From positions 1-21,040 of the IMG/VR virus record IMGVR_UViG_3300024308_000206: a stretch of DNA of 21,040 bases; one strand, written 5' to 3'. Shown here one piece after another: positions 1,869 through 14,971 of this stretch. A model generated the notes under the pieces. The model was given only the letters and a program-made list of their open reading frames with translations, was not told the DNA's origin and did not search any database. Every line of letters begins with the position of its first letter. The stretch's first letter is position 1. Position numbers and translations under genes: made by a program. This stretch comes from a virus.

Positions 1869-1896
1869 GGCCGGGGCTCCCCGGCCTTTGGTTATT
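1869..1896 (+). terminator. Rho-independent terminator after the virion gene
   Basis: Perfect 8-bp GC-only inverted repeat GGCCGGGG (1869-1876) / CCCCGGCC (1879-1886), followed by TTTGGTTATTT. It lies 63 bp past the 540-aa gene's stop and just outside the stop codon of the converging Mnt-like gene. The T-rich side favours plus-strand termination. Transcripts must read through it (for example by late antitermination) if they are to reach the giant gene from upstream. Confidence 0.7.
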
Positions 1897-2125
1897 TATC
1901 CTGGTTGCCGCTCATTGCGTCATCGAAGAGTTTGTTGATGACCGCCTTAATCTCTTCGTAGCTGGCTTGTTGAGGGGTGTCCCCACGATTAATCGCGTCT
2001 TGGAGTATCTGCACGATTTCCGAGTTCATTGATCGGCCATTCTTCCTCGCGCGCTCCTGAATTTTAATTTTTAAATCATCAGGCAACCTGACTCCAAGCG
2101 GGGCGATATTGCTTGCTCCTTTCAT
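1892..2125 (-). CDS. mnt-like: Mnt-like ribbon-helix-helix repressor (module A), 77 aa
   Basis: Arc/Mnt-class MetJ/Arc DNA-binding protein. The N-terminal strand SNIAPLGVRLPDDLK is followed by the family hallmark NGRSMNSEIVQILQDAI, close to P22 Mnt as I remember it. After the RHH fold, a polar linker leads to a helix (SYEEIKAVINKLFDDAM, about 55-71) that corresponds to the C-terminal tetramerisation helix separating Mnt (about 80 aa) from Arc (about 53 aa). The start has AGAGG with 6-nt spacing. It is divergent from the arc-like gene at 2236, with three CTACAnnnTGTAG operators between them. By analogy with P22 immI, it should keep the antirepressor silent in the lysogen. The identity as an Arc/Mnt-class repressor is strong; its exact targets are inferred. 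Confidence 0.88.
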   Translation of the reverse strand: MKGASNIAPLGVRLPDDLKIKIQERARKNGRSMNSEIVQILQDAINRGDTPQQASYEEIKAVINKLFDDAMSGNQDK

Positions 2126-2150
2126 GCGTGACCTCTGGCAAAAAAAATAT

Positions 2151-2221
2151 CTACATAATGTAGCAATTTCTCACTTGACTGAATAGCTACATGATGTAGA
2201 GTTTGTGTCTACATGGTGTAG
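2151..2221. promoter_or_regulatory. Triple operator of module A (CTACAnnnTGTAG)
   Basis: Three 13-bp near-perfect palindromes lie between the divergent mnt-like and arc-like genes: CTACATAATGTAG 2151-2163, CTACATGATGTAG 2187-2199 and CTACATGGTGTAG 2209-2221. Centre-to-centre distances are 36 and 22 bp. Symmetric sites between divergent RHH repressor genes are the expected targets of Arc/Mnt proteins. The same motif recurs in module B at 13557-13621. Which repressor binds which site cannot be told from sequence. Confidence 0.82.
2175..2202 (+). promoter_or_regulatory. Candidate promoter of the arc-ant operon A
   Basis: TTGACT (2175-2180), a 16-bp spacer and TAGAGT (2197-2202) form a plausible sigma70 promoter. 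Operator 2 lies between the -35 and -10 and overlaps the -10, and operator 3 lies at the expected start of transcription, so occupancy would block initiation. This is the arrangement expected of a P22 Pant-like promoter. The minus-strand promoter for the mnt-like gene must lie in the same region, but I could not pick a convincing one. Confidence 0.5.
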
Positions 2222-2235
2222 GTATTGGAGCGACG

Positions 2236-2391
2236 ATGAAGACGAGCAGCATCCCGCCATTTGGCGTTCGGATGGAAAAAGAACTGAAAGACTTGCTGGC
2301 CAAGCAGGCAAGGAAAAATGGGAGATCTCTTAACTCTGAAGTGGTCCAGATCCTGAAAGAGGCACTTAAGTATGAAGAGAAAGATGTGTGA
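2236..2391 (+). CDS. arc-like: Arc-like repressor (module A), 51 aa
   Basis: Start chosen at ATG 2236 because GGAG (2227-2230) sits 5 nt upstream; the in-frame ATG at 2203 would put coding sequence across operator 3 and the promoter. The product IPPFGVRMEKELKDLLAKQ then ARKNGRSLNSEVVQILKEAL is an almost complete Arc fold: the beta strand carrying operator-contact residues, helix A, the NGRSLNSE turn, and helix B. Its length matches P22 Arc (53 aa) and it lacks the extra C-terminal helix of Mnt. It is first gene of an operon with the antirepressor, so it should limit antirepressor synthesis after induction or infection, as Arc does in P22. Family assignment is firm; function is by analogy. Confidence 0.88.
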   Translation: MKTSSIPPFGVRMEKELKDLLAKQARKNGRSLNSEVVQILKEALKYEEKDV

Positions 2392-2393
2392 GG

Positions 2394-2447
2394 GTGTAAA
2401 TGGCTCGGCCCCGGCGGGTGCAACCGCCAAGGCCGAAGGATGTAAAT
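2394..2447 (+). ncRNA. C4-like structured RNA element between arc and ant (module A)
   Basis: The arc-ant intercistronic segment contains nested hairpins: outer TCGGCC (2405-2410) / GGCCGA (2431-2436) and inner GGCGG (2413-2417) / CCGCC (2424-2428) with a short loop. An almost identical element lies at 13803-13854, with a covarying inner pair (G-C here, A-T there). TGTAAAT occurs on both sides (2395-2401 and 2441-2447), and its complement ATTTACA lies at 2475-2481 over the start of the antirepressor. Position and shape recall the P1/P7 C4 antisense RNA family found before phage antirepressors, and the P22 sar region. The element also reads as a peptide (SAPAGATAKAEGC) in one frame, so coding constraint is an alternative. 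The RNA family is inferred. Confidence 0.55.
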
Positions 2448-2470
2448 CAAACCAAGTTGAGGACCTGTGT

Positions 2471-3268
2471 ATGAATTTACACGAGAAGTGTAACGCTTCT
2501 GATACTGACAGCCAAGTGGCGCTGATCCCGGTTAACCAGAGCCAGGTCGGTGATGATCTGGTGCAGACCGTCAATGCTCGCGAGCTTCATGCCTTTCTGG
2601 AGGTTGGGAAGGTGTTTGCCGCCTGGATCCAAGAGCGCATAGAGCAGTTTGGCTTCGTTGAAAATCAAGACTTTATAGTTATTTCCGAAACTGGAAAAAA
2701 CCCTAAAGGTGGGCGACCTAGCAAGGAATACTTCCTCGCACTGGACATGGCCAAAGAACTGTCCATGGTTGAGCGCAACGCGAAGGGGAAGCAGGCTCGC
2801 CAATACTTTATCCAGTGCGAGCGCGTGGCAAAGTCACCGAACAACAACCCCATGCTGGTCGCTTCCACCATGAATAGCGATCAACTGGCCCTGTTGATGG
2901 GGGAGGTTAAGCGGCGTGAAGCGGTGCAGCGTGAGCGAGACGAGGCGATCCGCACCAAGGCTTGCATCTCCAGCAGCCGAGAGGCGTCCGTAATGGCCAA
3001 GCTGGGCCATACCAAACGTGAGAACGAAGCGCTCAAAGAGCAATTGGGAGTTGGCACCAAGCACAAGAGCGTGAAGGGTGCAGGGCTGGAGCAGTTCTAT
3101 ATCGATGAGGGTGGCAACCGACGCCAGACCGCCAACCGGCTCAAGAAGATTGCGCTGGAGATGGGATTGGCTGGCGACATCATCGACATTGAAGACCCTA
3201 ACTACGGCACGGTGAAGGCGTATCCGGTCAGTGTGATAGAGCGTTTCAAGCTGGAGGTGGCGGCATGA
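2471..3268 (+). CDS. ant: AntA/AntB-type antirepressor (module A), 265 aa
   Basis: Start ATG 2471 is preferred: GAGGA (2459-2463) is 7 nt upstream, whereas the longer in-frame ATG at 2372 would translate through the conserved hairpin element and overlap arc. Residues about 30-120 match the AntA/AntB antirepressor domain: VNARELHAFLEVGKVFAAWI, then a QDF(I/V) segment, GGRPSKEYFLALDMAKEL, then KGKQARQYFIQCER. The rest is a charged helical region (KRREAVQRERDEA) and a C-terminal segment with REASVMAKLGHT and RRQTANRLKKIA that may be a small helical DNA- or protein-binding domain. Antirepressors of this class inactivate prophage repressors and drive lytic growth. Expression should be held by the Mnt- and Arc-like proteins and by the hairpin element. 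It overlaps the next ORF by ATGA. Confidence 0.85.
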   Translation: MNLHEKCNASDTDSQVALIPVNQSQVGDDLVQTVNARELHAFLEVGKVFAAWIQERIEQFGFVENQDFIVISETGKNPKGGRPSKEYFLALDMAKELSMVERNAKGKQARQYFIQCERVAKSPNNNPMLVASTMNSDQLALLMGEVKRREAVQRERDEAIRTKACISSSREASVMAKLGHTKRENEALKEQLGVGTKHKSVKGAGLEQFYIDEGGNRRQTANRLKKIALEMGLAGDIIDIEDPNYGTVKAYPVSVIERFKLEVAA

Positions 3269-3408
3269 GTGCAACCCAACTGCAAGACGAGCTGACCGCC
3301 TTGCTCGGCGATCTGGATGCTATTGACCTGACCCCAGAGGATCGCAGGCTGATTGCCAATCGGATTGAGCGCATGATGCCGGTTGAATATTCACCCGCCC
3401 AGCGTTAG
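3265..3408 (+). CDS. Small acidic protein coupled to the antirepressor, 47 aa
   Basis: ATG 3265 overlaps the antirepressor stop (ATGA), with GGAGGTGG at 3253-3260 giving a strong Shine-Dalgarno at 4-6 nt. The product (MSATQLQDELTALLGDLDAI, then LTPEDRRLIANRIERMMPVE) is acidic and mostly helical, with no recognisable family. It is followed 45 bp later by a strong terminator, so it is the last gene of operon A. Module B has an unrelated ATGA-coupled small ORF (14665-14943) in the same position, which suggests an accessory role next to the antirepressor. Coding status rests on the ribosome site and tight coupling. Confidence 0.65.
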   Translation: MSATQLQDELTALLGDLDAIDLTPEDRRLIANRIERMMPVEYSPAQR

Positions 3409-3453
3409 CATCTCTCCATCGTCGGTCAGTCTGCATGCTGATCGCCCCATCTC

Positions 3454-3493
3454 AAAAGCCCCGAACGGTTCGCCGCTCGGGGCTTTTCTTTTG
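3454..3493 (+). terminator. Strong intrinsic terminator of immunity operon A
   Basis: An 11-bp perfect stem AAAAGCCCCGA (3454-3464) / TCGGGGCTTTT (3477-3487), with a further inner pairing in the loop, is followed by CTTTTG. It closes the arc-ant-47-aa operon and isolates it from the giant gene. It also argues that the giant protein does not start upstream of this point. Confidence 0.85.
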
Positions 3494-3514
3494 AATACAG
3501 CCGAGGCCACTCGA

Positions 3515-6500
3515 ATGGACAAGTACAGTCTCCGTGACGCATCCCTGCCACAACCGCTGCAATCTGACTCTCGAGGAAAGCAGTTCTGGGATGGCATCAA
3601 CAGTCAGCTTTCATCACCGCCCGCAGCTGCGGCCCCAAAGCGAGACCTCGACACAGAATGGAGCGATTATCCCAAGGCGGTAGGCGCTGGCGCGTTGGAG
3701 CTGGTCGGTGGCATTGGTGAGTTAGCGCGGGGCGTGATAAGTCACGGGAAAGAGAATGGGGGGAAGACTGCTTGGGGGAATGTTGCCTCTGCGATCACCC
3801 CCTTGATGAAAGGGGTTGCGGCAACAGGGGATTTAGCTCAATCCGGCGCGGATGCCTTGAACGAGAGTATGAGTGCTGACGCCAAGGAGGCACTGGGACG
3901 CCGACTGGTCGATGAAACGCCAGAAGGCCGGTTGACCCTGGGGGATGGCGCAGGGGATATCGATGTCTGGGCGATGAAAATGGCGCAGGGCGTTGGCTCT
4001 TTGCTACCGACACTCGCCGCTGGCGGGGTGACTGGGGTGGCCGCCAAAGCCTCTATCGGCCGGGCTGTCACTGCATCCATGGTCAAGCGTGGCGCGACCC
4101 AGGAGGTAGCCGAAGCGGTTGCCGCCAAGGCCGTGTCCAAAATTGCCACCGGCGCCGCCGTCACCACTGGTACGACCGGGTCAGTCGGCAGTGCGGGGGT
4201 GAACACTCGTGACACCGTGCTGGGCATGAGCTTTGACGAGCTGGCGGCCAGCGACACCTTCCGCCAGTCGTTTACTCGCATCGACCAGGATCAGCAGACC
4301 GCCCATCTCTCTGATGAGGAAAAGCTGGGGCTGGCCCGTGAGGAAACGGCCAACTTGGCCAGCCGAGCCACTATGAGCGACGCCAAGGTGTGGGGAGCTG
4401 CCGCCATGGGCTCCATGATGGGCGACGCCATGCTGTTCAAGATGCTGGCTGGCAAGGCGGCCACCGGTGGAGTGCTGAAAGGTGCTGCCAAGGGGGCGGC
4501 AGGTGAGGGTATCAGCGAAACCCTGGAGGAGGGGGTGCAGCAATACGCCGTCAACGAATCCCTCAACGAGGTGGCCGCCGCTGATATCGACCCGATGAAG
4601 GGGGTCATGTCGAGCGCGATCGAGGGCGGCTTGATAGGGATGGGGACAGGTGGTGCGGTAGGTGCTGTCGGTGGGGCGCGAGGCGGTAAGCATGCCAGCC
4701 AGGAAGATGGCGTTGGGACCGATCCGGTTTCAGAACCTTCCGCGCCGGTGACGGAGGGCGCTGCTGGTCCGGCAGTGGATCCGAACTTTGCTTCTGTTCC
4801 ACTGGAAGAAGGCGAGCAGGCGCCCTCCGCCTCGCAGGCCGAGGGGGAGCTGAATCCGCTCGGCCCCAGCGCAAGCCAGTTCCCCGGTGTGTTTGAACGT
4901 GATCAGCGCGGTATCTTGCGCGTGAAGGGTGATGTTGATGTGCTGGCGTCATGGGCCGAGCAGGCCGATATGCCCTACATCACCGATGGTGATGGCATTG
5001 CAATCCCCGCCAAATATGCCAAGCAGGCAGAAAAGGCGATCAAAGGTTACCGGCCGGTTGCAGCTGAGCCGATGGCAGAGGCAGCGCCTGCCGACATGCT
5101 TACGTTCAGCCAGGTTGACCCCATTGAGCATGAGCCCGCGATAAAGCGGCAAGGGTTCGTCATGCGCAATGGCGATGGTCAATCGACTGGGGAGCCGGAG
5201 CCCTATGTCCGCCCGCAATCAGGGGATGAGCTGCTGTATGAATCAAGTGCCAACTGGCAGGCTGGTCAGCCACATGCCGAGTCAGCACCAGTAGATCTGG
5301 AAGCGCTGCGCAAAGAGAGCGCCCAGCGCTGGCGCGACGGCAACAAGCCAGAGGCGGGCACGCCGGTTCGCACTGAGGAAGACACCGAGCAGGCGCTGAA
5401 CGCATTGCGGGCCGAGGGGGTGAATGGCTGGGCCGGCCGACAAGATCCCAAGCTGGATATGCCGAAGGGCCAGGAGTTTATCCCGCATGGCCCCCAAGCC
5501 GGGTTGCCGGCGGTCGTGGGTGATGGGGTACAACAGGCGGCCGGTAAAGCCAAGGGGCTCCCGCTATCCGATACCATCTTTGCAGGCGGCCCGAGCCACG
5601 GCGGCCAGGCGGATAATACCAACTATGCCCGTCCTCACCTGTCCCGCGATCAGGTTGACAGCACCCTGGGGGAGGAGTCCATTCGGGATCCGCGCTCCCC
5701 AGTCAGGCAGTCCATCGCCAAGGCTGGCAGCGCCACAGATAGCGTGTTTGGCCCGCTCAAGTCGTTGCGCATCACCCGCAAGGGCAAGCCCTTTGCCACC
5801 GAGAAAGAGGCGGCCATGGCCAGCCGCAAGGATCAGGAAATGCCGGTGCCGCTCAATGGTGGCGGCTTTGGGGTAGCGGCTATCGGTGAGGTGCAACAGG
5901 CCCAAGCGCAGCAGGGCGCAGTCAAGCAACCGTCAAGCAATTCGGCCCAGCAGGATCGCCAAGACGGAAAGACTGAGATCGCGCAAAATGGCATGGTGAT
6001 CGTTCATGGTTCCGGCAATCCAGGCATGAGCGAGCAGGATATTCAGATTGTCCGCGCAAGTGGTCAGAAGCAGGGCAAAAAGGGCCGTGTCTATGGTGGC
6101 TTCTATGGCACCAGCGAGCAGGACGCGCACCAAGCGCAAGCCTACGCCGATATGATGGGCGGCACGCCCACCCTGTACGATGTCAAGATTAAGCCTGGCA
6201 CCAAGGTGTTGCACAAGCAGGGGGATATTACCCGCCTTTCTGAAAGCTACATCAACGAGTTGGTGAGTCAGGGATATGGTGTGGTCACCGGCACCGACCC
6301 GCGCGGCCAGACAGAGCATGTAGTTATCGACAAAAGCGCCGTAGCAAGCATGGCCCCGCGCGGCGCGCAAGCAACCCCGTCCCAAGTCAACGACACGAAT
6401 GTCGCTTACATAAGGCAACCATCTGATCAGCCAGCTGCAAGCGTAAGCGCTGAAACAGTTCCGGCGCCGTCTGCCACCGCGGGCGAGGCCAGCCAACTAG

Positions 6501-9500
6501 CACCAGCCATCGATACCGGATACCGCGAGGTGATCCCCGTCAAGCAACCCAAGACAGAGGTGAGCAATGAGCCAGTTACCACAGTACCTGCAATCAGCAG
6601 TGAAGGACAACGCGATCAGCCTGGCGCAGGCGAACCGGCTGCAGCAGGCGCTGGACCAGCCGTTGCCGGACTCACCGACCGAGCTGGATCCGGAGATCGG
6701 GCAGATCTCGCTGCGCCTGCACCTGTACCTGATGGACAGCAGCAAGATGACCAAACACTGACAGCCCCGGCCACAGATGCCGGGGTTGCTGTTTCTGAGG
6801 TGGCGCAACCAGATCCGGTAGTGCCTGCACCTGTCGCCGCACCTACGCCATGGGCAGAGGCCATTGATAACCCGGATGGAACCATCACCTTGAAAGGTGA
6901 TGTGCCGCTCATCAAGCAGTGGGCCAAGGATAGCGGCGTAAAGGCGATCCCGGGCAAGGGTGGCCTGGTAGTGTCCACGACTTCGGTAGCGAAGGTGCGA
7001 CAGCTCACCACGCCTGCCACCAGTGAACCGGTGCGGCAGATTGAAGCGGCCCGCGCCGAGATAGCGCCGGAGCCCACCGAAGCACAGAAGGAAGCGGGGA
7101 ACTACAAGAAGGGGCACATCAAGCTGCAGGGGCTGGACATTGCGCTCGAGAACCCCAAGGGCTCTACCCGCTCCGGCACTGACAAGGATGGCAAGGCATG
7201 GCAGTCAACCATGACCCATGACTACGGCTACATTAAACGCACCCTGGGGGCGGACGGAGATCATGTCGATGTGTTCATCGGTGACAAGCCGGATAGCGAG
7301 ACGGTCTATGTGGTGGACCAGGTGGACCCCATAACCGGCAAGTTTGACGAACACAAGGTGATGATGGGCTTTTCCGATGAGCAGGCCGCCCGGGAAGGCT
7401 ACCTTGGCAACTACGAGGCGGGCTGGAAAGGACTGGGTGCCATCAAGGCGATGCCGGTGGAATCGTTCAAGCGCTGGGTGAAGGAGGGGGACACCACCAA
7501 ACCAGCCGACTCCATGGAGAGTGAGCCTGTTGATGCCAACGCGTTGGCCGATGAGGAAGCTATCGCGGTTGCGGATGAGTTGGGCATCGAGCATGGGGAT
7601 AACCCTGATGATGCGCGCTGGTGGCTGGACGGCATCAAGGCTGATGTGCTGGCCGCTGCCGTTGGCCGGGTACGCAACCCTGGCGAGCCGGTAGCCATCA
7701 AGCGGCCGCTCGATAACCCCAACATTGTGGCAGCACCTCCCATGGAGGGCGACCCCGTCACTCGCGCCAAGAAAGTACGGATGTCCCAGCAGCGGGAAGG
7801 AGGTTATGAAGGGCTATCGGTTGACGAAGCGACGCGGATCGTGGACGATTTTCTGGCGGACTTTAACGGAAACATTCCGCTGAAGCCGTTTATCAGGGAG
7901 AAGGTCAGTGAAATCTACCGAAACGTCGCCGACGATTCCGATACCGCCAGAACCACCAAGGGTGCCTATCACCCCTCCGCCGACCTCTTCACCGTCGTCG
8001 CAGGAAATGCCAGAGGGACCGTTTCTGGATCTCCCGCTCTTCGTTTGCAGAAGGGACGACTACGAGAATCAGTGGAGTTGGGAGCGAAAGCGGACCTCCT
8101 CAAAACTTTACGCCATGAGTTGCTGGGTCACTACGGCCTGGACACGTTTGCGCCAGAAGATAAGCGGGCTCTGCTCCAGAAGCTGATCGCAGCACAAAAG
8201 GAGCCGTGGCTTGCCCCCGCTTGGAGGCATGCCAGCAATCTGGGTGACCAGCTCGATGCGATCAAGGAGCACGAGCGGGAACTGGCGGTCGCTGAAGAGG
8301 CGTTTGCCCGCCTCGCCGAGCGGGAACTGCCTTCTCGCGCCATCCAGACCTGGAACGATATCAAGGCCACCTTCTCCAGCCTGCTGCGCAAGATCGGTTT
8401 GGTCAAGGGCCCTATCAAGGAGCACGAGCTCGACAGCCTGATCCGGGCCGTGAGCAAGGGCATTCGCAACGGTGAGCGCACCCGCCAGAACATCCGCGGT
8501 GATAAGGAGGTGATCGGCAAACAAGCCGATGAGCCAGCCAAGGATGACAAGCCCGAGCGCATCATCCGCTTCTCAAAGCAGGCAATGGCACAAGGGGACA
8601 AGCCGGCTAAGCACCTGACCCGTAAAGAGGCTGAGCTGGTTTCCCATGGTTGGTTCAAGCAGTACCGGGGGGCGAGCGGCATCAAGGTGCAGATCCACGC
8701 CACCCAAGCAGAGCTTGAAGGGGCCCTGGGGCTGGATGCCAAGGACGGATTGATCCGTCGCGCGGCGTTTGACGACGATGCAGGCACCCTGCACGTGGCT
8801 GCCGACACCATCTCCGACCCCAAGCGGATGCGCGAGATCCTGCGCCATGAGGTGCTGGCCCACTATGGCCTGGCCAACGTCCTGGGTGACGGGGAATATA
8901 CCAAGCTGATGAGCCGTCTCATCCAGTCGCAGAAGGACCCCAGCATGAAGCCGGTGTGGGACTGGGTGAACACCCATTACGCCGACGAGGACATCGGCAC
9001 CCAAGCCGAGGAAGTGGTGGCCCACCTCGCCGAAGTCGAGCAGGGGGCCTGGGGCCGTGGCTGGGATCGGGTCGTGGCCTGGGTCACCCGGGCGCTGCGC
9101 GCCGTTGGTTTTGTGCCGGATGGTATCACTGCAGCGGAGACGCGATCCCTGATTGAAGGGCTTGGCAAGAAACTGCAGCGCACCGGACCTGATGACAGCA
9201 GTCCGGAAGGCGGCAAGAAGTTCAGCCAGGAAGAGCAGCCAACAAGAATGAGCCAGGAGGCTGACTCTGTCATTGGCGGCGGCAGCCTGCGAGATGTGAT
9301 CAGTTCAATTCGCGATACCGGAGTGACAATATCGGCTACCGAGAATGGCGGGGTAATAAACCTTGTCAAAATTGCTGTTGATGAGAGCGAAAGGGGGCGG
9401 GGTAAGGGAACATCCGCCATGCGAGATATCATCAGATACGCAGACCGAACAGGGCAAGTCATTGCGTTATCGCCATCAGCCGACTTTGGTGGCAATAAGT

Positions 9501-12196
9501 CGAGGCTTGTTGCGTTCTATAAAGGGCTTGGATTTGTTGAAAACAAGGGTAAAAACAAGGACTTTTCAATATCAGAGTCAATGTATCGCCCAGCAAAAGA
9601 GAAATCGTCCATCCGTTTTAGCCAGGCAGACACCGCAGCCGAGCAGGCCATGGAAAAGCTGAACCTTGGCCCTCGGCCCGACATCATCGACAAGACCAAA
9701 ACCAACCTGAACAAGCTCCGTCAAGTTGACCGTGGCGTGGTCAGCTCATGGGTTGATCGCGTCATCAAAAAAGCCAATACCGAGGTGCTCGACGCGCTGG
9801 CCCCCATCAAGTACGCCGAGGAGGCTGCCGGCATTACCGATGCTGCTGACTCCGGCTATGTGGCTGCACGGATGGCGACGGGGGCCGCCTCCACCATGCA
9901 GGCGACCATGCTTTACGGTTTGCCGGAGTGGAAGGATGGGGTGATCCAGCGCAAGGCGGGCACCGGCGAGAAGGATGCGCTGCTGGGAATCTTTGCCGAC
10001 CTGGGAGCTGATCTGCACAACTGGCTTGGCTGGATGGCTGGTCACCGGGCGGAACTGCTGATGGCGCAGGGCAGAGAGAACCTGCTTGATGCCAATGACA
10101 TTGCGGCGCTCAAGGGGCAAGGCAAGGGCAAGGAGGCCAAATTCCTTGATGCCAAAGCCCGCTGGAACCGCCTCAATGCCGCAACCCTGGACCTGGCACA
10201 AGAAGCTGGGCTCTTCACCAAAGAGGCGCGGGCCGAGTTTGAAAGCGAATGGTACATCCCGTTCTTCCGTGAATCAGATGACGGCGACGTGATCGCCCCC
10301 TTCAAGACGAAGGGCATTGCCAACCAGAACGCCGGCATCAAGAAGCTCAAGGGCGGGGAGGCCAACACCAACGACCTGCTCGAGAACATCTTCACCTCCA
10401 CCTCCAAGCTGATCGACGCGTCCATGAAGAACATGGCGGCCCAGAAGACGGTTTGGAACCTGGCGGATACCGGCATCATCGAGGTCATTCCGAAGCCAAA
10501 CAAGATGGATTACCAGGCCCTTGCCAATGGCAAAGACAGGATCATGGTCAAGCTGGAGGGGGAGGACTACATGATCCGGGTTGAGGATCCGGACCTCTAT
10601 CGCGCTATGACCTTCTTCGACCGCAAGCCGTTCGGCGCCATGGTCAATGTGGCGGCCAAGGCCAAGCGCCTGCTTACTGCTGGGGTCACTGCATCTCCCG
10701 AATTCATGCTGCGCAACTTCCTGCGCGACTCACTCTCCAGCTGGGCGATCAGCAAAGACGGCTTCAGGCCGGTGATCGACTCCATCAAGGGGGTGAAAAA
10801 GACCCTGGCGATGGACGGCAGTACCATTGATGTGATGTTCAGCGGAGCCTCCTTCCTGGGCGGCTACGTGAATGGCAATGACCCAGAGGCGATGGCCGAT
10901 ACCGTGCGTAAGTCGCTGCGACGCAAGGGGATGACGCCCGAGCAAATCGCCCGCTACGAAAAGAGCATTATCCGCAACGCCGCTCAGGCAAAGGGCGTGG
11001 TTGCCAATGCGTGGGAGAAGTACAACCGCTATGGCGAGGCTTTCGAGAATGCCAACCGCGAGGCGGTCTATGCCGCAGCCATCAAGGCTGGCAAGAGCCA
11101 CGCCCAGGCGGCGTTCGAGTCGAAGGACCTGATGGATTTCTCCATGCTGGGTGCCTCACGCACCATGCAGGTCATGACCCAACTGCTGCCGTTCTTCAAT
11201 GCCCGGGTGCAAGGTCTAGGCAAGCTGACCCGCGAACTGCTGGACAACCCGAGAGCCATCGCCAAACGTGCAGGCATGATCACGGCTGCGAGCCTGGCTC
11301 TGCTGGCCGCCAACTGGGACGATGAGCGATACGAAGAGCTGCCGGATTGGGACAAGGATGCCAACTGGCACTTCTTTGTCGGCGATCAGCACTTCCGGAT
11401 CCCCAAGCCGTTCGAGATTGGCGTGCTGTTTGGCACCATCCCCGAGCGCATGGTACGCGCCCTGGGTGACAAGGATTCCGGAGCCCAGTTTGGCAAGGCG
11501 GTGGCCAGGGCCATCGGCGACACCTTCGCCCTCAACCCGATCCCCCAGATCGCAAAGCCGGTGGTGGAGACAACGGTAAACTATGACTTCTTCAAGGGCG
11601 GCCCCATCGACGGTCCGCAAGACCTGAACGTCCAGGCAGAGGCGCGTTACAACGAGCAGACCAGCCTGCTGATGCGCGAGCTGGGGGAGCTCACTGGCTT
11701 CTCACCCAAGCAGCTTGAGCACCTGGTCATTGGTTACACCGGCACCATGGGCAGCTATGTGATGGCTGCCGCTGACGGGCTTATCCGGGCTTCGCGCCCT
11801 GGTGAGTCAGCAAGCTGGCGCGCCGACGAGATCCCGCTTGTTAAAGCGGTGTATCGCGGCACTGGCCCTGCAAAGTCCACCCAGCACATGGAGGAGTTCT
11901 ACCGGATGCTGAACGAGGTGAATCAGCTCAAACGCACCATTGACCAGTACCGCAGCGAAGGGCTCACAGATAAGGCCCGCGAGCTGCTGGAGGAGCAGGG
12001 TGGGATCTTGAAGTCGCGCCGCAGCCTGAGCCGCACTCAGCAGCAGGTCCGGGTGGTGCGCAACAAGATCGAGCTGATCCAGCGCGACCGCAAAATGACA
12101 GCAGAAGAGAAGCGCCGGCGCATCGATGAGATGCTGGCCCGCCGTAATGACCTAGTGTATCAGGCGGTAAACAAGAACAAGGCGAACTGGGAGTAA
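3515..12196 (+). CDS. Giant polyvalent phage protein, 2893 aa (ART-, pyrophosphatase-, metallopeptidase- and GNAT-like domains)
   Basis: The frame is open from a TTG at 3383, but a strong terminator lies at 3454-3493, so I start at ATG 3515 (GAGG at 3503-3506, 8-nt spacing). Residues about 60-395: Ala/Gly-rich, membrane-active-looking segments with EGISETLEEGVQQYA, as in ejected internal proteins. About 825-945: ADP-ribosyltransferase-like, with candidate H831, Y864 (GGFYGTS) and E934. About 1194-1326: inorganic-pyrophosphatase-like, DGDHVDVFIGD at 1247-1257. Two zincin-like domains: HELLGH at 1534-1539 with a candidate third ligand at E1594/E1595, and HEVLAH at 1778-1783 with E1832/E1833. 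About 1915-2028: GNAT, with RGRGKGT and FYKGLGF. About 2290-2700: a region resembling large polyvalent-protein-associated domains (FMLRNFLRDSLSSW). The C-terminus is coiled coil. The layout fits the polyvalent-protein concept: proteins packaged and injected with phage DNA to counter host defences. Enzyme activities are inferred from motifs only. Confidence 0.9.
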   Translation: MDKYSLRDASLPQPLQSDSRGKQFWDGINSQLSSPPAAAAPKRDLDTEWSDYPKAVGAGALELVGGIGELARGVISHGKENGGKTAWGNVASAITPLMKGVAATGDLAQSGADALNESMSADAKEALGRRLVDETPEGRLTLGDGAGDIDVWAMKMAQGVGSLLPTLAAGGVTGVAAKASIGRAVTASMVKRGATQEVAEAVAAKAVSKIATGAAVTTGTTGSVGSAGVNTRDTVLGMSFDELAASDTFRQSFTRIDQDQQTAHLSDEEKLGLAREETANLASRATMSDAKVWGAAAMGSMMGDAMLFKMLAGKAATGGVLKGAAKGAAGEGISETLEEGVQQYAVNESLNEVAAADIDPMKGVMSSAIEGGLIGMGTGGAVGAVGGARGGKHASQEDGVGTDPVSEPSAPVTEGAAGPAVDPNFASVPLEEGEQAPSASQAEGELNPLGPSASQFPGVFERDQRGILRVKGDVDVLASWAEQADMPYITDGDGIAIPAKYAKQAEKAIKGYRPVAAEPMAEAAPADMLTFSQVDPIEHEPAIKRQGFVMRNGDGQSTGEPEPYVRPQSGDELLYESSANWQAGQPHAESAPVDLEALRKESAQRWRDGNKPEAGTPVRTEEDTEQALNALRAEGVNGWAGRQDPKLDMPKGQEFIPHGPQAGLPAVVGDGVQQAAGKAKGLPLSDTIFAGGPSHGGQADNTNYARPHLSRDQVDSTLGEESIRDPRSPVRQSIAKAGSATDSVFGPLKSLRITRKGKPFATEKEAAMASRKDQEMPVPLNGGGFGVAAIGEVQQAQAQQGAVKQPSSNSAQQDRQDGKTEIAQNGMVIVHGSGNPGMSEQDIQIVRASGQKQGKKGRVYGGFYGTSEQDAHQAQAYADMMGGTPTLYDVKIKPGTKVLHKQGDITRLSESYINELVSQGYGVVTGTDPRGQTEHVVIDKSAVASMAPRGAQATPSQVNDTNVAYIRQPSDQPAASVSAETVPAPSATAGEASQLAPAIDTGYREVIPVKQPKTEVSNEPVTTVPAISSEGQRDQPGAGEPAAAGAGPAVAGLTDRAGSGDRADLAAPAPVPDGQQQDDQTLTAPATDAGVAVSEVAQPDPVVPAPVAAPTPWAEAIDNPDGTITLKGDVPLIKQWAKDSGVKAIPGKGGLVVSTTSVAKVRQLTTPATSEPVRQIEAARAEIAPEPTEAQKEAGNYKKGHIKLQGLDIALENPKGSTRSGTDKDGKAWQSTMTHDYGYIKRTLGADGDHVDVFIGDKPDSETVYVVDQVDPITGKFDEHKVMMGFSDEQAAREGYLGNYEAGWKGLGAIKAMPVESFKRWVKEGDTTKPADSMESEPVDANALADEEAIAVADELGIEHGDNPDDARWWLDGIKADVLAAAVGRVRNPGEPVAIKRPLDNPNIVAAPPMEGDPVTRAKKVRMSQQREGGYEGLSVDEATRIVDDFLADFNGNIPLKPFIREKVSEIYRNVADDSDTARTTKGAYHPSADLFTVVAGNARGTVSGSPALRLQKGRLRESVELGAKADLLKTLRHELLGHYGLDTFAPEDKRALLQKLIAAQKEPWLAPAWRHASNLGDQLDAIKEHERELAVAEEAFARLAERELPSRAIQTWNDIKATFSSLLRKIGLVKGPIKEHELDSLIRAVSKGIRNGERTRQNIRGDKEVIGKQADEPAKDDKPERIIRFSKQAMAQGDKPAKHLTRKEAELVSHGWFKQYRGASGIKVQIHATQAELEGALGLDAKDGLIRRAAFDDDAGTLHVAADTISDPKRMREILRHEVLAHYGLANVLGDGEYTKLMSRLIQSQKDPSMKPVWDWVNTHYADEDIGTQAEEVVAHLAEVEQGAWGRGWDRVVAWVTRALRAVGFVPDGITAAETRSLIEGLGKKLQRTGPDDSSPEGGKKFSQEEQPTRMSQEADSVIGGGSLRDVISSIRDTGVTISATENGGVINLVKIAVDESERGRGKGTSAMRDIIRYADRTGQVIALSPSADFGGNKSRLVAFYKGLGFVENKGKNKDFSISESMYRPAKEKSSIRFSQADTAAEQAMEKLNLGPRPDIIDKTKTNLNKLRQVDRGVVSSWVDRVIKKANTEVLDALAPIKYAEEAAGITDAADSGYVAARMATGAASTMQATMLYGLPEWKDGVIQRKAGTGEKDALLGIFADLGADLHNWLGWMAGHRAELLMAQGRENLLDANDIAALKGQGKGKEAKFLDAKARWNRLNAATLDLAQEAGLFTKEARAEFESEWYIPFFRESDDGDVIAPFKTKGIANQNAGIKKLKGGEANTNDLLENIFTSTSKLIDASMKNMAAQKTVWNLADTGIIEVIPKPNKMDYQALANGKDRIMVKLEGEDYMIRVEDPDLYRAMTFFDRKPFGAMVNVAAKAKRLLTAGVTASPEFMLRNFLRDSLSSWAISKDGFRPVIDSIKGVKKTLAMDGSTIDVMFSGASFLGGYVNGNDPEAMADTVRKSLRRKGMTPEQIARYEKSIIRNAAQAKGVVANAWEKYNRYGEAFENANREAVYAAAIKAGKSHAQAAFESKDLMDFSMLGASRTMQVMTQLLPFFNARVQGLGKLTRELLDNPRAIAKRAGMITAASLALLAANWDDERYEELPDWDKDANWHFFVGDQHFRIPKPFEIGVLFGTIPERMVRALGDKDSGAQFGKAVARAIGDTFALNPIPQIAKPVVETTVNYDFFKGGPIDGPQDLNVQAEARYNEQTSLLMRELGELTGFSPKQLEHLVIGYTGTMGSYVMAAADGLIRASRPGESASWRADEIPLVKAVYRGTGPAKSTQHMEEFYRMLNEVNQLKRTIDQYRSEGLTDKARELLEEQGGILKSRRSLSRTQQQVRVVRNKIELIQRDRKMTAEEKRRRIDEMLARRNDLVYQAVNKNKANWE
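4907..5050 (+). repeat. Internal repeat unit 1 of the giant protein
   Basis: Encodes about 48 residues beginning RGILRVKGDVDVLASWAEQA. It is clearly related to the unit at 6875-7003 (KGDV-x(2)-[LI]-x(2)-WA[EK], then a turn with GDG/GKG, a beta strand, and A-K-x-A/V). Similarity is at protein level; the DNA has diverged. It lies ahead of the ART-like domain. Function is unknown; it could be a small alpha/beta adaptor or binding module. Confidence 0.6.
6875..7003 (+). repeat. Internal repeat unit 2 of the giant protein
   Basis: Encodes about 43 residues beginning DGTITLKGDVPLIKQWAKDS, the second copy of the module at 4907-5050. It lies between the ART-like and pyrophosphatase-like domains. The two units bracket the ART-like domain, which would fit insertion of that domain between duplicated linker modules. 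Confidence 0.6.
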
Positions 12197-12269: not shown

Positions 12270-12473
12270 ATGTGGATACTGTTTGCTCTGATAATGATGG
12301 TGGTGGCGCTGAAAGCGTTCAGTTTCAGCTTCACCCTGGCACTGATACCCTTTGCGGCCGGGTGCTGGTGTTTCAGCAAATCCAGCCGGAGCGATCTGGA
12401 TGATTTTATGGCATTCAGTTTTTTTATTGCTCTGGTTGGATTTGCTATTGCGGCGCTTGACCAGCTGTTTTAG
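12270..12473 (+). CDS. Small membrane protein, 67 aa
   Basis: ATG 12270 with AGAGGG (12256-12261) 8 nt upstream. Most of the protein is hydrophobic: residues about 1-35 (MWILFALIMMVVALKAFSFS, then TLALIPFAAGCWCF) could form one or two membrane segments, then a short polar stretch (SKSSRSDLDD), then a second hydrophobic segment to the C-terminus ending in LDQLF. No family is recognised. The size and topology would allow a holin-like or superinfection-exclusion protein, but nothing specific supports either. It follows the giant gene by 73 bp. Its stop codon abuts the stop codon of the converging lipoprotein gene with no base between. Confidence 0.6.
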   Translation: MWILFALIMMVVALKAFSFSFTLALIPFAAGCWCFSKSSRSDLDDFMAFSFFIALVGFAIAALDQLF

Positions 12474-13151
12474 TTACTGAGAGATTTCGCCAAAGTGGAT
12501 TCTGGTTAATCTGGTGGCCTCGGCAAATCTCTCCTCAAGAGATTTATTACCCCACTCAGGATCTGCCTTTAATTTATCATCTACATCCACTGCATAATCA
12601 AACTTTGGTGATTTCTCGTAATACCATTCTTTTAGATAGGCCGTATTATTTATGGCATTTAACACTGGAGCAGGAACGTCATTCTGGATTGTTTCAGTTG
12701 CTTGTCGCGATACATTTTGCCTTTCAGCATAAATGGCATTGGAAATATCCTTCGAGGTAGTCCAGCCTAGGCTAGCCATGCAACCATCATAAACAGTATC
12801 ACGATCCATGCTAGCCCTCATTGCACTGCCTATCGCAGCTCCATTAGCAAAGCCACTTGAAAATGCGTCTGCGGGAGATTGCGACACCGAACCGTATCCA
12901 GATATATTTGAAGTAGGCATTCCGGCTTGATAAACATTGGCATTAAAGGTGTAAATTCTTGCACCACTATCGTAATGTCTTACCTCTGGCATCGGAACTG
13001 CACCGACAGAAACGCTAGTGCAGTAGCCGTCATCAATTTCAAGCTGCATTGCACGCTGTGAATCACTTTCTATATATGGGTTGTAATATATATTACTAGA
13101 GCAACCCGAAATAATGGCAACAGAAGACAATAACAAAGCAGGTTTCATCAT
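12474..13151 (-). CDS. Putative secreted lipoprotein, low-GC moron gene, 225 aa
   Basis: I start at ATG 13151 (GGAG 6 nt upstream; ATG 13148 also possible) rather than the longer frame from 13187. This gives a textbook type II signal peptide, MMKPALLLSSVAIISGC, with lipobox ISGC, so Cys17 should be lipidated after signal peptidase II cleavage. The mature part begins SSNIYYNPYIESD, has a Ser/Gly/Ala-rich middle (PADAFSSGFANGAAIGSAM), cysteines in GYCTS and DGCMAS that could form a disulfide, and a charged helical C-terminus (EWGNKSLEERFAEATRLTRI). I recognise no family. By hand count parts are near 32% GC (12601-12660, 13081-13140), far below the flanking phage genes. An isolated, AT-rich, reverse-oriented exported protein at the edge of the late region is typical of lysogenic-conversion (moron) genes; it could alter the lysogen's surface. 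Confidence 0.72.
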   Translation of the reverse strand: MMKPALLLSSVAIISGCSSNIYYNPYIESDSQRAMQLEIDDGYCTSVSVGAVPMPEVRHYDSGARIYTFNANVYQAGMPTSNISGYGSVSQSPADAFSSGFANGAAIGSAMRASMDRDTVYDGCMASLGWTTSKDISNAIYAERQNVSRQATETIQNDVPAPVLNAINNTAYLKEWYYEKSPKFDYAVDVDDKLKADPEWGNKSLEERFAEATRLTRIHFGEISQ

Positions 13152-13171
13152 ACATGACTCCACGTTAAAAC

Positions 13172-13194
13172 AGCATAGTTGTATCAACTATGCT
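13172..13194 (-). repeat. Perfect inverted repeat upstream of the lipoprotein gene
   Basis: AGCATAGTTG (13172-13181) and CAACTATGCT (13185-13194) are perfect 10-bp inverted arms around a 3-nt loop. On the minus strand the hairpin is followed by GTTTTAAC. It lies between the Mnt-like gene B (stop at 13249) and the lipoprotein start (13151). It could be a leaky terminator for the repressor transcript, a 5'-leader attenuator, or an operator for the lipoprotein. Confidence 0.65.
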
Positions 13195-13248
13195 TCACAT
13201 GGAACTAAAAATCTTTGACTAGTTGCACAAAGTACGGGAAACACGGGG

Positions 13249-13554
13249 CTACTTTTTTGTAATCTGATTTTCTAGCTCGCCAAGCAACAGCCTCATTTGC
13301 TCCAGAACCGCAATGGTAGCAGCTTCGGAAGGTTGGTTGTTCACCCAGCCGCCGAAGCCATCGATCATGGTTATAGGCATGTGCCTAGCAACTCCACTCT
13401 CATCCCCTTCAGCCTGCTCATCCATGGCTTTTTGCAGCCAGTGAACGACCTCAGCATTTAGAGATCTGCTGTTTTTCTTTGCCGATACTTCAAGCCGTTT
13501 TTTGAGGTCTGGCGGCATCCTAACCCCAAATGGCGCAATGTTGCTTACTTTCAT
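13249..13554 (-). CDS. mnt-like: Mnt-like ribbon-helix-helix repressor (module B), 101 aa
   Basis: The N-terminal half is a clear Arc/Mnt RHH domain: SNIAPFGVRMPPDLKKRLEV, then KKNSRSLNAEVVHWLQKAM. Note SRSLNAE in place of the usual GRSxNSE. The C-terminal extension is longer than in Mnt and ends in a helix (TIAVLEQMRLLLGELENQITK) with leucine heptads, probably an oligomerisation helix. No Shine-Dalgarno is visible: the ATG at 13554 lies 2 bp from the operator palindrome at 13557-13569. A -35-like TTGACG (13589-13584) with a 17-bp spacer to CATTCT (13566-13561) would start transcription about at the ATG, suggesting a leaderless mRNA. It is divergent from the arc-like gene B. The lipoprotein gene follows on the same strand, so the two may share a lysogenic transcript. 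Confidence 0.85.
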   Translation of the reverse strand: MKVSNIAPFGVRMPPDLKKRLEVSAKKNSRSLNAEVVHWLQKAMDEQAEGDESGVARHMPITMIDGFGGWVNNQPSEAATIAVLEQMRLLLGELENQITKK

Positions 13555-13556
13555 AA

Positions 13557-13621
13557 CTACAGAATGTAGTCATTGGAGCTTGACGTCAATAACTACACAA
13601 TGTAATGATTACATTATGTAG
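13557..13621. promoter_or_regulatory. Triple operator of module B (CTACAnnnTGTAG)
   Basis: Three palindromes: CTACAGAATGTAG 13557-13569, CTACACAATGTAA 13593-13605 and TTACATTATGTAG 13609-13621 (centres 36 and 16 bp apart). Sites 2 and 3 together form a near-perfect 33-bp inverted repeat (13591-13623). Motif and first spacing are the same as in module A. Site 1 touches the mnt-like start codon and site 3 precedes the arc-like Shine-Dalgarno, so one set of sites can control both divergent genes. Confidence 0.8.
13580..13589. promoter_or_regulatory. Palindromic TTGACGTCAA usable as -35 in both directions
   Basis: TTGACGTCAA is a 10-bp palindrome midway between operators 1 and 2 of module B. Read on the minus strand, TTGACG pairs with CATTCT at 17-bp spacing, toward the Mnt-like gene. 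On the plus strand, TTGACG (13580-13585) precedes TGTAAT (13601-13606) at a short 15-bp spacing. The divergent promoters would therefore overlap at their -35 elements and compete for polymerase. The plus-strand promoter is weakly supported. Confidence 0.45.
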
Positions 13622-13642
13622 TCATTTGCGAGAGAGGAGAAC

Positions 13643-13801
13643 GTGAGCAAATCAATACCACCGACAGGGATAAGAATGCCAGATGACATCAAATCGTGGC
13701 TCGCTAAGCGAGCTGAAGGCAATGAGCGCAGCATGAACAAAGAGGTGCTGTTTATCTTGAGGAAGGAGATGGAGAGGGATGGGCAGAGCGAGAGCAAGTA
13801 A
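13643..13801 (+). CDS. arc-like: Arc-like repressor (module B), 52 aa
   Basis: A GTG-started small gene (GTG 13643) with a purine-rich ribosome site GAGAGGAG (13632-13639). The product SKSIPPTGIRMPDDIKSWLA, then KRAEGNERSMNKEVLFILRK shows the Arc layout: an N-terminal strand, a helix, an NERSMNKEV turn and a second helix, with a basic and acidic tail. Length matches Arc. It is divergent from the Mnt-like gene and followed by the conserved hairpin element and a KilA-C antirepressor. By analogy it represses its own operon. NKE replaces the usual NSE at the start of helix B, a small departure from module A. Confidence 0.8.
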   Translation: MSKSIPPTGIRMPDDIKSWLAKRAEGNERSMNKEVLFILRKEMERDGQSESK

Positions 13802-13802
13802 C

Positions 13803-13854
13803 ATAAATGATTCGGCCCCAGCGGCGGCAACCGCTAAGGCCGAGGGATGTAAAC
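13803..13854 (+). ncRNA. C4-like structured RNA element between arc and ant (module B)
   Basis: Outer stem TCGGCC (13812-13817) / GGCCGA (13838-13843) and inner stem AGCGG (13820-13824) / CCGCT (13831-13835). The segment aligns without gaps to the module A element (2399-2447). The outermost inner pair changes from G-C to A-T, keeping the pairing. TGTAAAC follows (13848-13854). Unlike module A, no strong downstream complement covering the antirepressor start is visible. Most differences are also synonymous in one reading frame, so RNA structure and coding constraint cannot be separated with two copies. Confidence 0.5.
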
Positions 13855-13882
13855 CCACCACGCTAATGATTGGAGTTACGGT

Positions 13883-14668
13883 ATGACTATACAACAACAG
13901 CATAAGCAAACGGAAGTTTTGGCAGGGCCGCTGATGAATGGCAGTGCCATCACCATGAGCAGCTTGGATTTTTGGGACAATGTAATCAGCCCAGCAAGAC
14001 GTGATGCGGGTGAACCAGAGTCAACCTATCAGAATTTCCTGTCAAAAGTTAAAGATGAGATTGATGATCTGGGGCCGGAGGAAAAACATATTTGTGAGAA
14101 AATCAATGAGTTAGGTTTTTCTCGGAAATATAAAACCCCATACCACATGCTCAACTTCGATCAGCTGATGTTAACTGGTATGCGCGAATCCAAGGCGGTT
14201 CGCCGTTCGGTGCTCGCCAAACTCAAAGCGCTTGATGAACAAGTTCGCACTCCACCAGTAGATCCGATGGCGGTACTCAATGACCCAGCCGCGATGCGCG
14301 GGATCTTGCTGACCTATACCGAGAAGGTGTTGGTGCTGGAAGAACAGGTTGAGGCAATGAAGCCCGATGTGGAGGCATTGGAGCGGATCGCTAAAGCCGA
14401 TGGCTCACTCAATCTGACCGAGGCGGCCAAGGCATTGCAACAGCAACCCAAGAAGTTCAATCAGTACCTCGGCAGCCTGAGCTGGATTTACAGGCGGGCG
14501 GGCAACAATCGCTTGCTCGGTTATCAGGACAAGGTGCAACAGGGGCTGCTTGAGCACAAGGTGACGACCATCACCTTGCCCGATGGCAGTGAGCGCCTAA
14601 GTGAGCAGGTGCGCATCACCCCGAAAGGGTTGGCTAAGCTCGCCAAGATGTTGGGGGTGGTGCAATGA
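13883..14668 (+). CDS. KilA-C domain antirepressor (module B), 261 aa
   Basis: ATG 13883 has GGAG (13872-13875) 7 nt upstream. The C-terminal half (about 140-258) is a KilA-C (phage antirepressor C-terminal) domain: a leading helix VLEEQVEAMKPDVEALERIA, then GSLNLTEAAKALQQQPKKFN, SLSWIYRRAGNNRLLGYQDK and RITPKGLAKLAKML. The N-terminal half (FWDNVISPARRDAGEPESTY and then YKTPYHMLNFDQLMLTGMRE) is where such proteins carry a variable regulatory domain; YHMLNFDQLMLTGMRES loosely recalls the pRha/Rha type, but I would not insist. The protein shares no evident domain with the module A antirepressor, though the upstream control region is the same. It overlaps the 92-aa ORF by ATGA. Confidence 0.82.
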   Translation: MTIQQQHKQTEVLAGPLMNGSAITMSSLDFWDNVISPARRDAGEPESTYQNFLSKVKDEIDDLGPEEKHICEKINELGFSRKYKTPYHMLNFDQLMLTGMRESKAVRRSVLAKLKALDEQVRTPPVDPMAVLNDPAAMRGILLTYTEKVLVLEEQVEAMKPDVEALERIAKADGSLNLTEAAKALQQQPKKFNQYLGSLSWIYRRAGNNRLLGYQDKVQQGLLEHKVTTITLPDGSERLSEQVRITPKGLAKLAKMLGVVQ

Positions 14669-14943
14669 CCTACCAAATGAACGGCAATGCCATGGGGCAG
14701 TTATTAAATGCCGAATCAATGGCAAGCAGCGCGGCCTCGGCGGTCTGGATGTTGAAAGAGCAGATCGCCAACTCACCCAACCAGATCCCCAACCTGGAAT
14801 TTCAACTCGGTGTGCTGGCCATGCTGGGGATGATCGAGGGACAGCTTACCGAGCTTGTCACCCAGATCGATCAGATTGACGTGACGGCAACACACCAGGG
14901 CACACCGCAATGCAAGGTAGCGGTGGAGGGGCTGGTGCAATGA
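14665..14943 (+). CDS. Small helical protein coupled to the KilA-C antirepressor, 92 aa
   Basis: Starts inside the antirepressor stop (ATGA, 14665-14668), and so is translationally coupled. The product is mostly helical and not clearly membrane-bound (GQLLNAESMASSAASAVWML, then EFQLGVLAMLGMIEGQLTEL), with a polar C-terminus. No family is recognised. It ends operon B, 28 bp before an intrinsic terminator. In module A an unrelated 47-aa ORF occupies the same ATGA-coupled position. Confidence 0.65.
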   Translation: MTYQMNGNAMGQLLNAESMASSAASAVWMLKEQIANSPNQIPNLEFQLGVLAMLGMIEGQLTELVTQIDQIDVTATHQGTPQCKVAVEGLVQ

Positions 14944-14971
14944 GCGTAGCTTCATAGAGGAGCAATGATTG

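Follow-up and report, generated by a model that had tools for sequence, protein, structure and literature searches.

In this study, we describe a lipoprotein gene (12474..13151, minus strand; 225 aa, P0001) in a viral DNA stretch of 21,040 nucleotides, hereafter the window, which spans positions 1 to 21,040 of the IMG/VR record IMGVR_UViG_3300024308_000206. Its product combines a lipoprotein signal and a rare N-terminal domain with a C-terminal domain that, by sequence comparison, is homologous to part of the phage group's head-assembly protein, and the gene lies where phage P22 carries its superinfection exclusion gene sieA. What looks like an ordinary moron of an Aeromonas-type temperate phage therefore occupies an exclusion-gene slot and includes a phage assembly domain, possibly with a new mechanism. 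The function that we favour, with about an even chance of being right, is that of an outer-membrane-directed lipoprotein, made in the lysogen with a Mnt-like repressor and acting in superinfection exclusion or a related envelope conversion, by analogy with the P22 sieA slot.

The reading frame, which is also seen in the relatives L002, L003, and L020, starts at an ATG at 13151, with the Shine-Dalgarno sequence GGAG (13158..13161, minus strand) ~10 nt upstream; a TTG at 13187, within a leader hairpin, is listed as an alternative start. The first 17 residues, MMKPALLLSSVAIISGC (13101..13151, minus strand), form a signal peptide ending in a canonical lipobox, I-S-G-C17, with Ser at +2. The first-pass annotation had already pointed to this lipobox, and ISGC17 is kept in L003 and L020, which are 75% and 77% identical to the window protein (L002 differs at one residue, 175), lipidation itself being predicted. 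In the same annotation the mature part was left as a domain of unassigned kind; we find two domains instead, and the C-terminal third, which had been overlooked, is the head-assembly domain.

This domain comprises four helices (residues 161-224; 12480..12671, minus strand). PHROG 479 (E 6.9e-17) and PHROG 10114 (E 9.5e-18) match residues 147-224, and a Pfam scan of the lipoprotein returned no family at E <= 1. A separate profile, built from copies in scaffold position with the lipoproteins left out, finds the window domain at an independent E-value (i-E) of 9.8e-19 (Z=1e6) and detects it in all three divergent lipoproteins at i-E ~1e-17 to 1e-18 (same Z). In the AlphaFold model, residues 161-219 fold into four helices with a mean predicted local distance difference test score (pLDDT) of 80-96 per ten-residue block, and residues 1-158 lie nearly all below 50; the matching four helices of the assembly protein are at 178-235, with block means of 60 at the first edge and then mostly 90-94, between poorly modelled flanking regions. 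Structure searches of BFVD and the PDB with the lipoprotein model gave nothing at E <= 0.001, a probable reason being that the pLDDT of the N domain is below 50, and one phage protein of 335 aa was returned by structure search with a probability of 0.99. A sequence search of the PDB with the lipoprotein gave no match, and with the assembly protein as query the matches there were weak, the best of them (0.0079) being a designed coiled coil.

Outside the lipoprotein, the domain belongs to the head-assembly protein. Seventeen phage records contain a match to the C-terminal stretch (13 from Stx or other Escherichia phages, one from the Aeromonas phage phiARM81mr, and three from Vibrio phages), with tblastn identities of 46-48% to the Stx and Aeromonas phages. 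In phiARM81mr, the Stx phage P27, and the Vibrio phage 1F273_PE002, the matching gene follows the portal gene and stands immediately before the major capsid gene, a few small genes intervening in some along the portal/assembly/capsid stretch. When viral contigs were scanned widely, 141 loci proved to have the domain, of which the best 80 were kept; 77 of the 80 have a major capsid gene within the stretch fetched, 75 of these also a portal gene, and the other three are this lipoprotein. Among 369 genomes of one bacterial class there was a single occurrence, in an assembly-type protein. Three of three related phages with the lipoprotein hold an assembly-protein copy as well: G001, the near-identical phage, and G002 each have the two genes on one contig, with assembly-protein domains 48% and 46% identical, respectively, to that of the window lipoprotein, and the third is 2687453540. 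The shared element is thus a four-helix domain of ~62 aa, 43-48% identical in the Aeromonas and Stx copies compared, while the PHROG 479 protein as a whole differs in its length (~310-335 aa), its capsid-adjacent gene, and the lack of a signal peptide in the copies inspected; the lipoprotein has a signal peptide and lies beside mnt. A recent duplication of the phage's own assembly copy is not supported: the lipoprotein copies form one clade (98/94) apart from the Aeromonas-type assembly proteins, in a tree of 62 columns only, with long branches and unsettled bootstrap. In the Stx2 phage Sp5, ORF61 lies between the portal and capsid genes, its deletion abolishes head-like particles, and an anti-ORF61 antibody gave no binding to virions, as stated in the part of that report available (PMC5155283). 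From its position, ORF61 would be the PHROG 479 protein.

Comparison of the relatives shows strong purifying selection on both domains, and not on the linker between them (residues 136-160; 12672..12746, minus strand). The ratio of nonsynonymous to synonymous change (dN/dS) between the window and L003 is 0.055 in the mature N domain, 0.152 in the C domain, and 0.749 in the linker; between the window and L020 it is 0.026, 0.085, and 0.631. For L003 and L020 themselves, it is low in all parts (N 0.062, C 0.05, linker 0.026), so that the looseness of the linker (0.63-0.75) belongs to the two window pairs. The signal peptide is loose too (0.48-0.50). As synonymous change in the N domain is near saturation in the window pairs, the N-domain ratios are rough; synonymous change (dS) in the C domain is lower (0.35-0.53), which may reflect exchange.

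Residues ~18-135 (12747..13100, minus strand), modelled with low confidence, are a rare lipoprotein domain. It recurs in a stand-alone 131-aa lipoprotein (G282), in a 299-aa protein (G192) that reads as carrying Sel1-like repeats, and on an Acinetobacter plasmid in a protein annotated 'sel1 repeat family'. The N domain was found in 3 of the 369 class genomes, 1 of 398 genomes of the phylum, and three viral contigs, and in none of 50,697 phage records; the whole lipoprotein as query found 1 of 72,556 plasmids. Since the N domain occurs elsewhere alone or fused to Sel1-type repeats, the phage protein is best described as a lipoprotein module whose C terminus can be exchanged. Fusions to Sel1-type repeats lie at L016 1489-2388 and L022 3962-4858, in a genome and in the Acinetobacter plasmid, which is conjugative and in which the fusion gene adjoins a TIR-domain gene. 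A Coxiellaceae protein (L004) was discarded as a relative, being a HAD-like hydrolase that has AYLKEWYYE in common by chance; that genome later served only as taxonomic centre.

The gene belongs to a cassette of ~2.5 kb (12425..14966). Among named phages phiARM81mr is the closest, and it lacks this cassette: the two sequences are 97.4% identical up to 12424 and 99.1% identical again from 14967. The lipoprotein gene is poor in G+C (0.423 overall and 0.35 at third codon positions, against 0.606 and 0.704 in the giant neighbouring gene), falling to 0.31 in stretches of 100 bp and to 0.327 in stretches of 150 bp, in line with the 32% quoted for parts of it in the first-pass annotation, and low GC together with the cassette missing from phiARM81mr bears out the transferred cargo gene proposed there. 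Besides the lipoprotein, the cassette encodes Mnt-like and Arc-like repressors, an antirepressor, and a small open reading frame. The Mnt-like ribbon-helix-helix repressor (101 aa; 13249..13554, minus strand) matches Pfam Arc (5.7e-06), PHROG 2685, and the P22 Mnt structure 1mnt (E 0.0064). The lipoprotein gene lies just downstream and in line, so that the proposed link to the repressor holds as far as placement goes. P22 Mnt (L113 3020-3271) is labelled 'partition protein ATPase' in its record, as is PHROG 2685, a label that is misleading for the repressor at 13249-13554. The divergent Arc-like repressor (52 aa; 13643..13801, plus strand; Pfam Arc 2.9e-08) matches both Mnt and Arc, and is followed by the antirepressor Ant, with a KilAC domain (13883..14668, plus strand; Pfam ANT 2e-27; PHROG 63). 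Between the two repressors are three operator-like repeats, CTACANNATGTAG (13553..13626); over both strands of the window this consensus has 13 matches with at most two mismatches, against 1.94 expected, and 0 of 100 shuffles gave as many. The region thus has the divergent repressors, intervening operators, and antirepressor after arc of a P22-type immI. A second divergent Arc-like pair, at 1892-3268, has three CTACANNATGTAG operators and then an AntA-type antirepressor; because the operator consensus is common to both, the two loci may cross-regulate.

The order in P22 is gene 16 (+), sieA (-), orf59a (-), mnt (-), arc (+), ant (+), and that in the window is the giant gene (+), the 67-aa protein (+), the lipoprotein (-), Mnt-like (-), Arc-like (+), Ant (+). 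Order and strands are therefore equal for the ejection-type gene, the envelope protein, mnt, arc, and ant. The place downstream of mnt, held in P22 by an inner-membrane protein, is taken here by a lipoprotein with an assembly domain, and family scans give no link to SieA.

The slot is variable among sibling phages. In 40 records behind the loci, we searched for the gene of the conserved 67-aa hydrophobic, predicted membrane protein (12270..12473, plus strand), whose stop codon directly abuts that of the convergent lipoprotein gene; 20 records were positive, and all 20 anchor loci were read, nine of them over longer stretches. A Mnt-like gene was seen in eight (G001, G002, G754, G769, G764, G767, G787, and G770). 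The slot holds this lipoprotein in G001, G002, and G754, a 321-aa GYF_2-domain protein with several hydrophobic spans in G769, an identical 115-aa secreted protein in G764 and G767, and a 169-aa N-anchored protein in G787. Seven of the eight Mnt-like cassettes thus have a minus-strand exported or membrane protein of one of four kinds, export being judged by eye, lipobox pattern, and hydropathy rather than by a trained predictor. Pairwise alignment between different kinds gave nothing better than E 0.02. Unrelated proteins sharing one slot are also a feature of SieA, which occurs as three sequence types in the part of that study available (PMC10883804). The stretches read at the other 12 anchor loci show no Mnt-like gene, in several because the contig ends; among them, a DUF4156 lipoprotein is present in G779, and G752 encodes a protein closely related to the secreted one. 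The genes in the sieA-like slots of Aeromonas-type siblings at L118, L119, L120, L122, and L115, whose products are exported or membrane proteins unrelated to one another (the multi-span GYF_2 protein, the secreted one of 115 aa, the anchored one of 169 aa, and the DUF4156 lipoprotein), are candidate exclusion genes in their own right.

Since the lipoprotein sits in the P22 sieA slot, lysogenic expression and a role in exclusion are made likely. From this context we infer expression in the lysogen, a periplasmic location, exclusion, and the trapping of virion proteins. Rather unlikely, in our judgement, is the particular form in which the capsid-assembly domain, moved into a periplasmic lipoprotein, serves as a decoy that captures the ejected internal proteins of related phages and stops DNA entry. 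The lipoprotein would then be made in the lysogen along with the Mnt-like repressor, and its lipid anchor would keep the assembly domain periplasmic, so placed as to bind virion proteins normally contacted within the procapsid, that is, ejection proteins and perhaps the giant polyvalent protein. Binding as a superinfecting phage releases its ejection proteins would cause the DNA conduit to fail.

Several precedents, as far as the sources are available, make this conceivable. P22 SieA blocks DNA injection through the ejection proteins gp16 and gp20 (PMC10883804), the lipoprotein Ltp, built of an anchor, a spacer, and a small active domain, blocks DNA entry via the tape measure protein (PMC3952083), and the P22 scaffold probably docks ejection proteins within the procapsid (PMC12005531); a periplasmic assembly domain could, therefore, bind the ejected proteins of an incoming phage. 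Ltp, from phage TP-J34, resembles the window protein in these three parts and in the place of its gene, close to the repressor within the lysogeny module, and a further proposed likeness is its mode of action, a block to DNA entry exerted through an ejected virion protein. It differs in its Gram-positive host and in a domain that the available part of the source does not describe as virion-derived, and a Pfam scan of the window lipoprotein gave no match to an Ltp-type domain. Gram-negative prophage lipoproteins also exclude phages (PMC11893012): Lpp021 and Lpp010 of the mEpimmI coliphages have a lipobox, and their cloned genes exclude phages, although the genes are in the structural cluster and the available part of that account mentions no assembly domain (PMC11893012). 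In a PADLOC scan for known anti-phage defence proteins, no family matched the lipoprotein, and among the papers listed by searches of the open-licence PMC literature, none describes in its title or the start of its abstract an assembly domain in a lipoprotein.

A number of observations weigh against exclusion as set out here. In the tree, the lipoprotein domain is not closest to the assembly copy of its own phage group, so that homotypic trapping fits poorly. Routing to the outer membrane is predicted from the serine at +2, taken as an outer-membrane signal of lipoproteins. In P22, sieA is served by a promoter of its own and preceded by a terminator, and a promoter scan ahead of the lipoprotein gene found no good promoter, for which reason co-transcription with the Mnt-like repressor is assumed. 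The fold predicted for a longer leader hides the ribosome site (mean unpaired probability 0.07), and one sibling of the eight, G770, has in the slot a 275-aa plus-strand protein without an export signal. Finally, in the part of their report available, the Sp5 authors give ORF61 no precise role and propose ORF65 as the scaffold (PMC5155283).

It is possible, if on the unlikely side, that the protein causes envelope conversion without exclusion, altering host surface or stress tolerance, with the assembly domain an accidental fusion that acts as a stable helical appendage. Bacterial lipoproteins not encoded by phages have the N domain by itself (G282) or joined to Sel1-like repeats (G192 and the Acinetobacter plasmid), which would fit, as would the unrelated exported proteins of the slot, such as the secreted repeat protein, and the DUF4156 lipoprotein in the sibling in which no Mnt-like gene was seen. 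Against it, the C domain is strongly conserved (dN/dS 0.05-0.15) while the linker drifts, which argues that the domain is in use, and the slot position matches that of P22 sieA. Highly improbable, in our view, is intracellular interference, whereby an internal start or an unexported form would yield a cytoplasmic assembly domain that poisons the capsid assembly of competing phages or satellites, much as capsid-size redirecting satellite proteins do. The protein that owns the C domain has a positional counterpart needed for head formation, and the domain folds on its own in the AlphaFold model; yet signal peptide, lipobox, and N domain are kept in three divergent copies, and this conservation indicates the exported form. 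Exclusion by the exported lipoprotein, if true, would extend the occupants of the sieA slot in mnt/arc/ant phages by a class of lipoproteins and show that slot to be a reservoir of envelope-acting exclusion genes. Were the decoy also true, exclusion specificity would be readable from the assembly-protein sequence, and lipoprotein binding could reveal the partner of a head-assembly domain that is also present in Stx phages.

In the leader of the gene, an inverted-repeat search recovers the perfect 10-bp hairpin with a 3-nt loop (13172..13194, minus strand), followed by TTTT, to which the first-pass annotation had drawn attention. It is the sole perfect stem of >=10 bp with a 3-8-nt loop in the window and is better than chance: a shuffled window is expected to hold 0.13 such stems (4 of 30 shuffles contained one), and when the local region was shuffled 300 times, one stem arose in a single case. 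Independently of the readings above, it is unlikely that this hairpin is a leaky terminator metering the repressor transcript into the lipoprotein gene. The stem and its TTTT beat chance, and the P22 record annotates a 23-bp terminator between mnt and sieA; against this, the sequence downstream on the lipoprotein strand is G-TTTT-AA, a short T run, and the terminator scan did not call the hairpin as an intrinsic terminator, a G+C-bearing stem followed by a T run. It was not found at the corresponding junction in L003 and L020, and in IMG/VR its sequence is on one contig only, that of the near-identical phage, so that a conserved terminator link to the repressor, as first proposed, is not supported, and a known repeat was rejected. 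A palindromic operator would be an alternative role; as a repressor operator the hairpin was rejected, as 0 of the 13 operator matches fall on it. The leader fold (-23 kcal/mol, z -4.2) has an outer stem that pairs ACGUGGAG, containing the ribosome site, and in it GGAG is predicted to be paired; the hairpin extends into this stem across 13155-13215. Because the fold reaches and pairs the ribosome site, translational control is suggested instead of termination and, on the modelled fold, the hairpin more likely tunes translation or read-through than acts as a canonical terminator. Translational control of read-through transcripts by the leader stem is one possibility.

Upstream of the cassette, the giant gene (3383..12196, plus strand) encodes a polyvalent protein of 2937 aa that matches Pfam InPase and LPD38 and PHROG 616 (length 2793). 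In the parts of the reports available, the giant ORF80 of Sp5 (2,793 aa) is required for tail formation (PMC5155283), and polyvalent proteins of this type are thought to be packaged and injected (PMC5512222). The window's giant protein is a candidate ejected virion protein and a candidate target of the lipoprotein. It also has a weak acetyltransferase match, and several stretches of its gene lack a counterpart at the DNA level in siblings to which the remainder aligns. Among the tail genes at L005 20725-22358 and L007 15636-17287, a reverse transcriptase is accompanied by a small neighbour protein, annotated as Avd in the Vibrio phage, which suggests diversity-generating retroelements.
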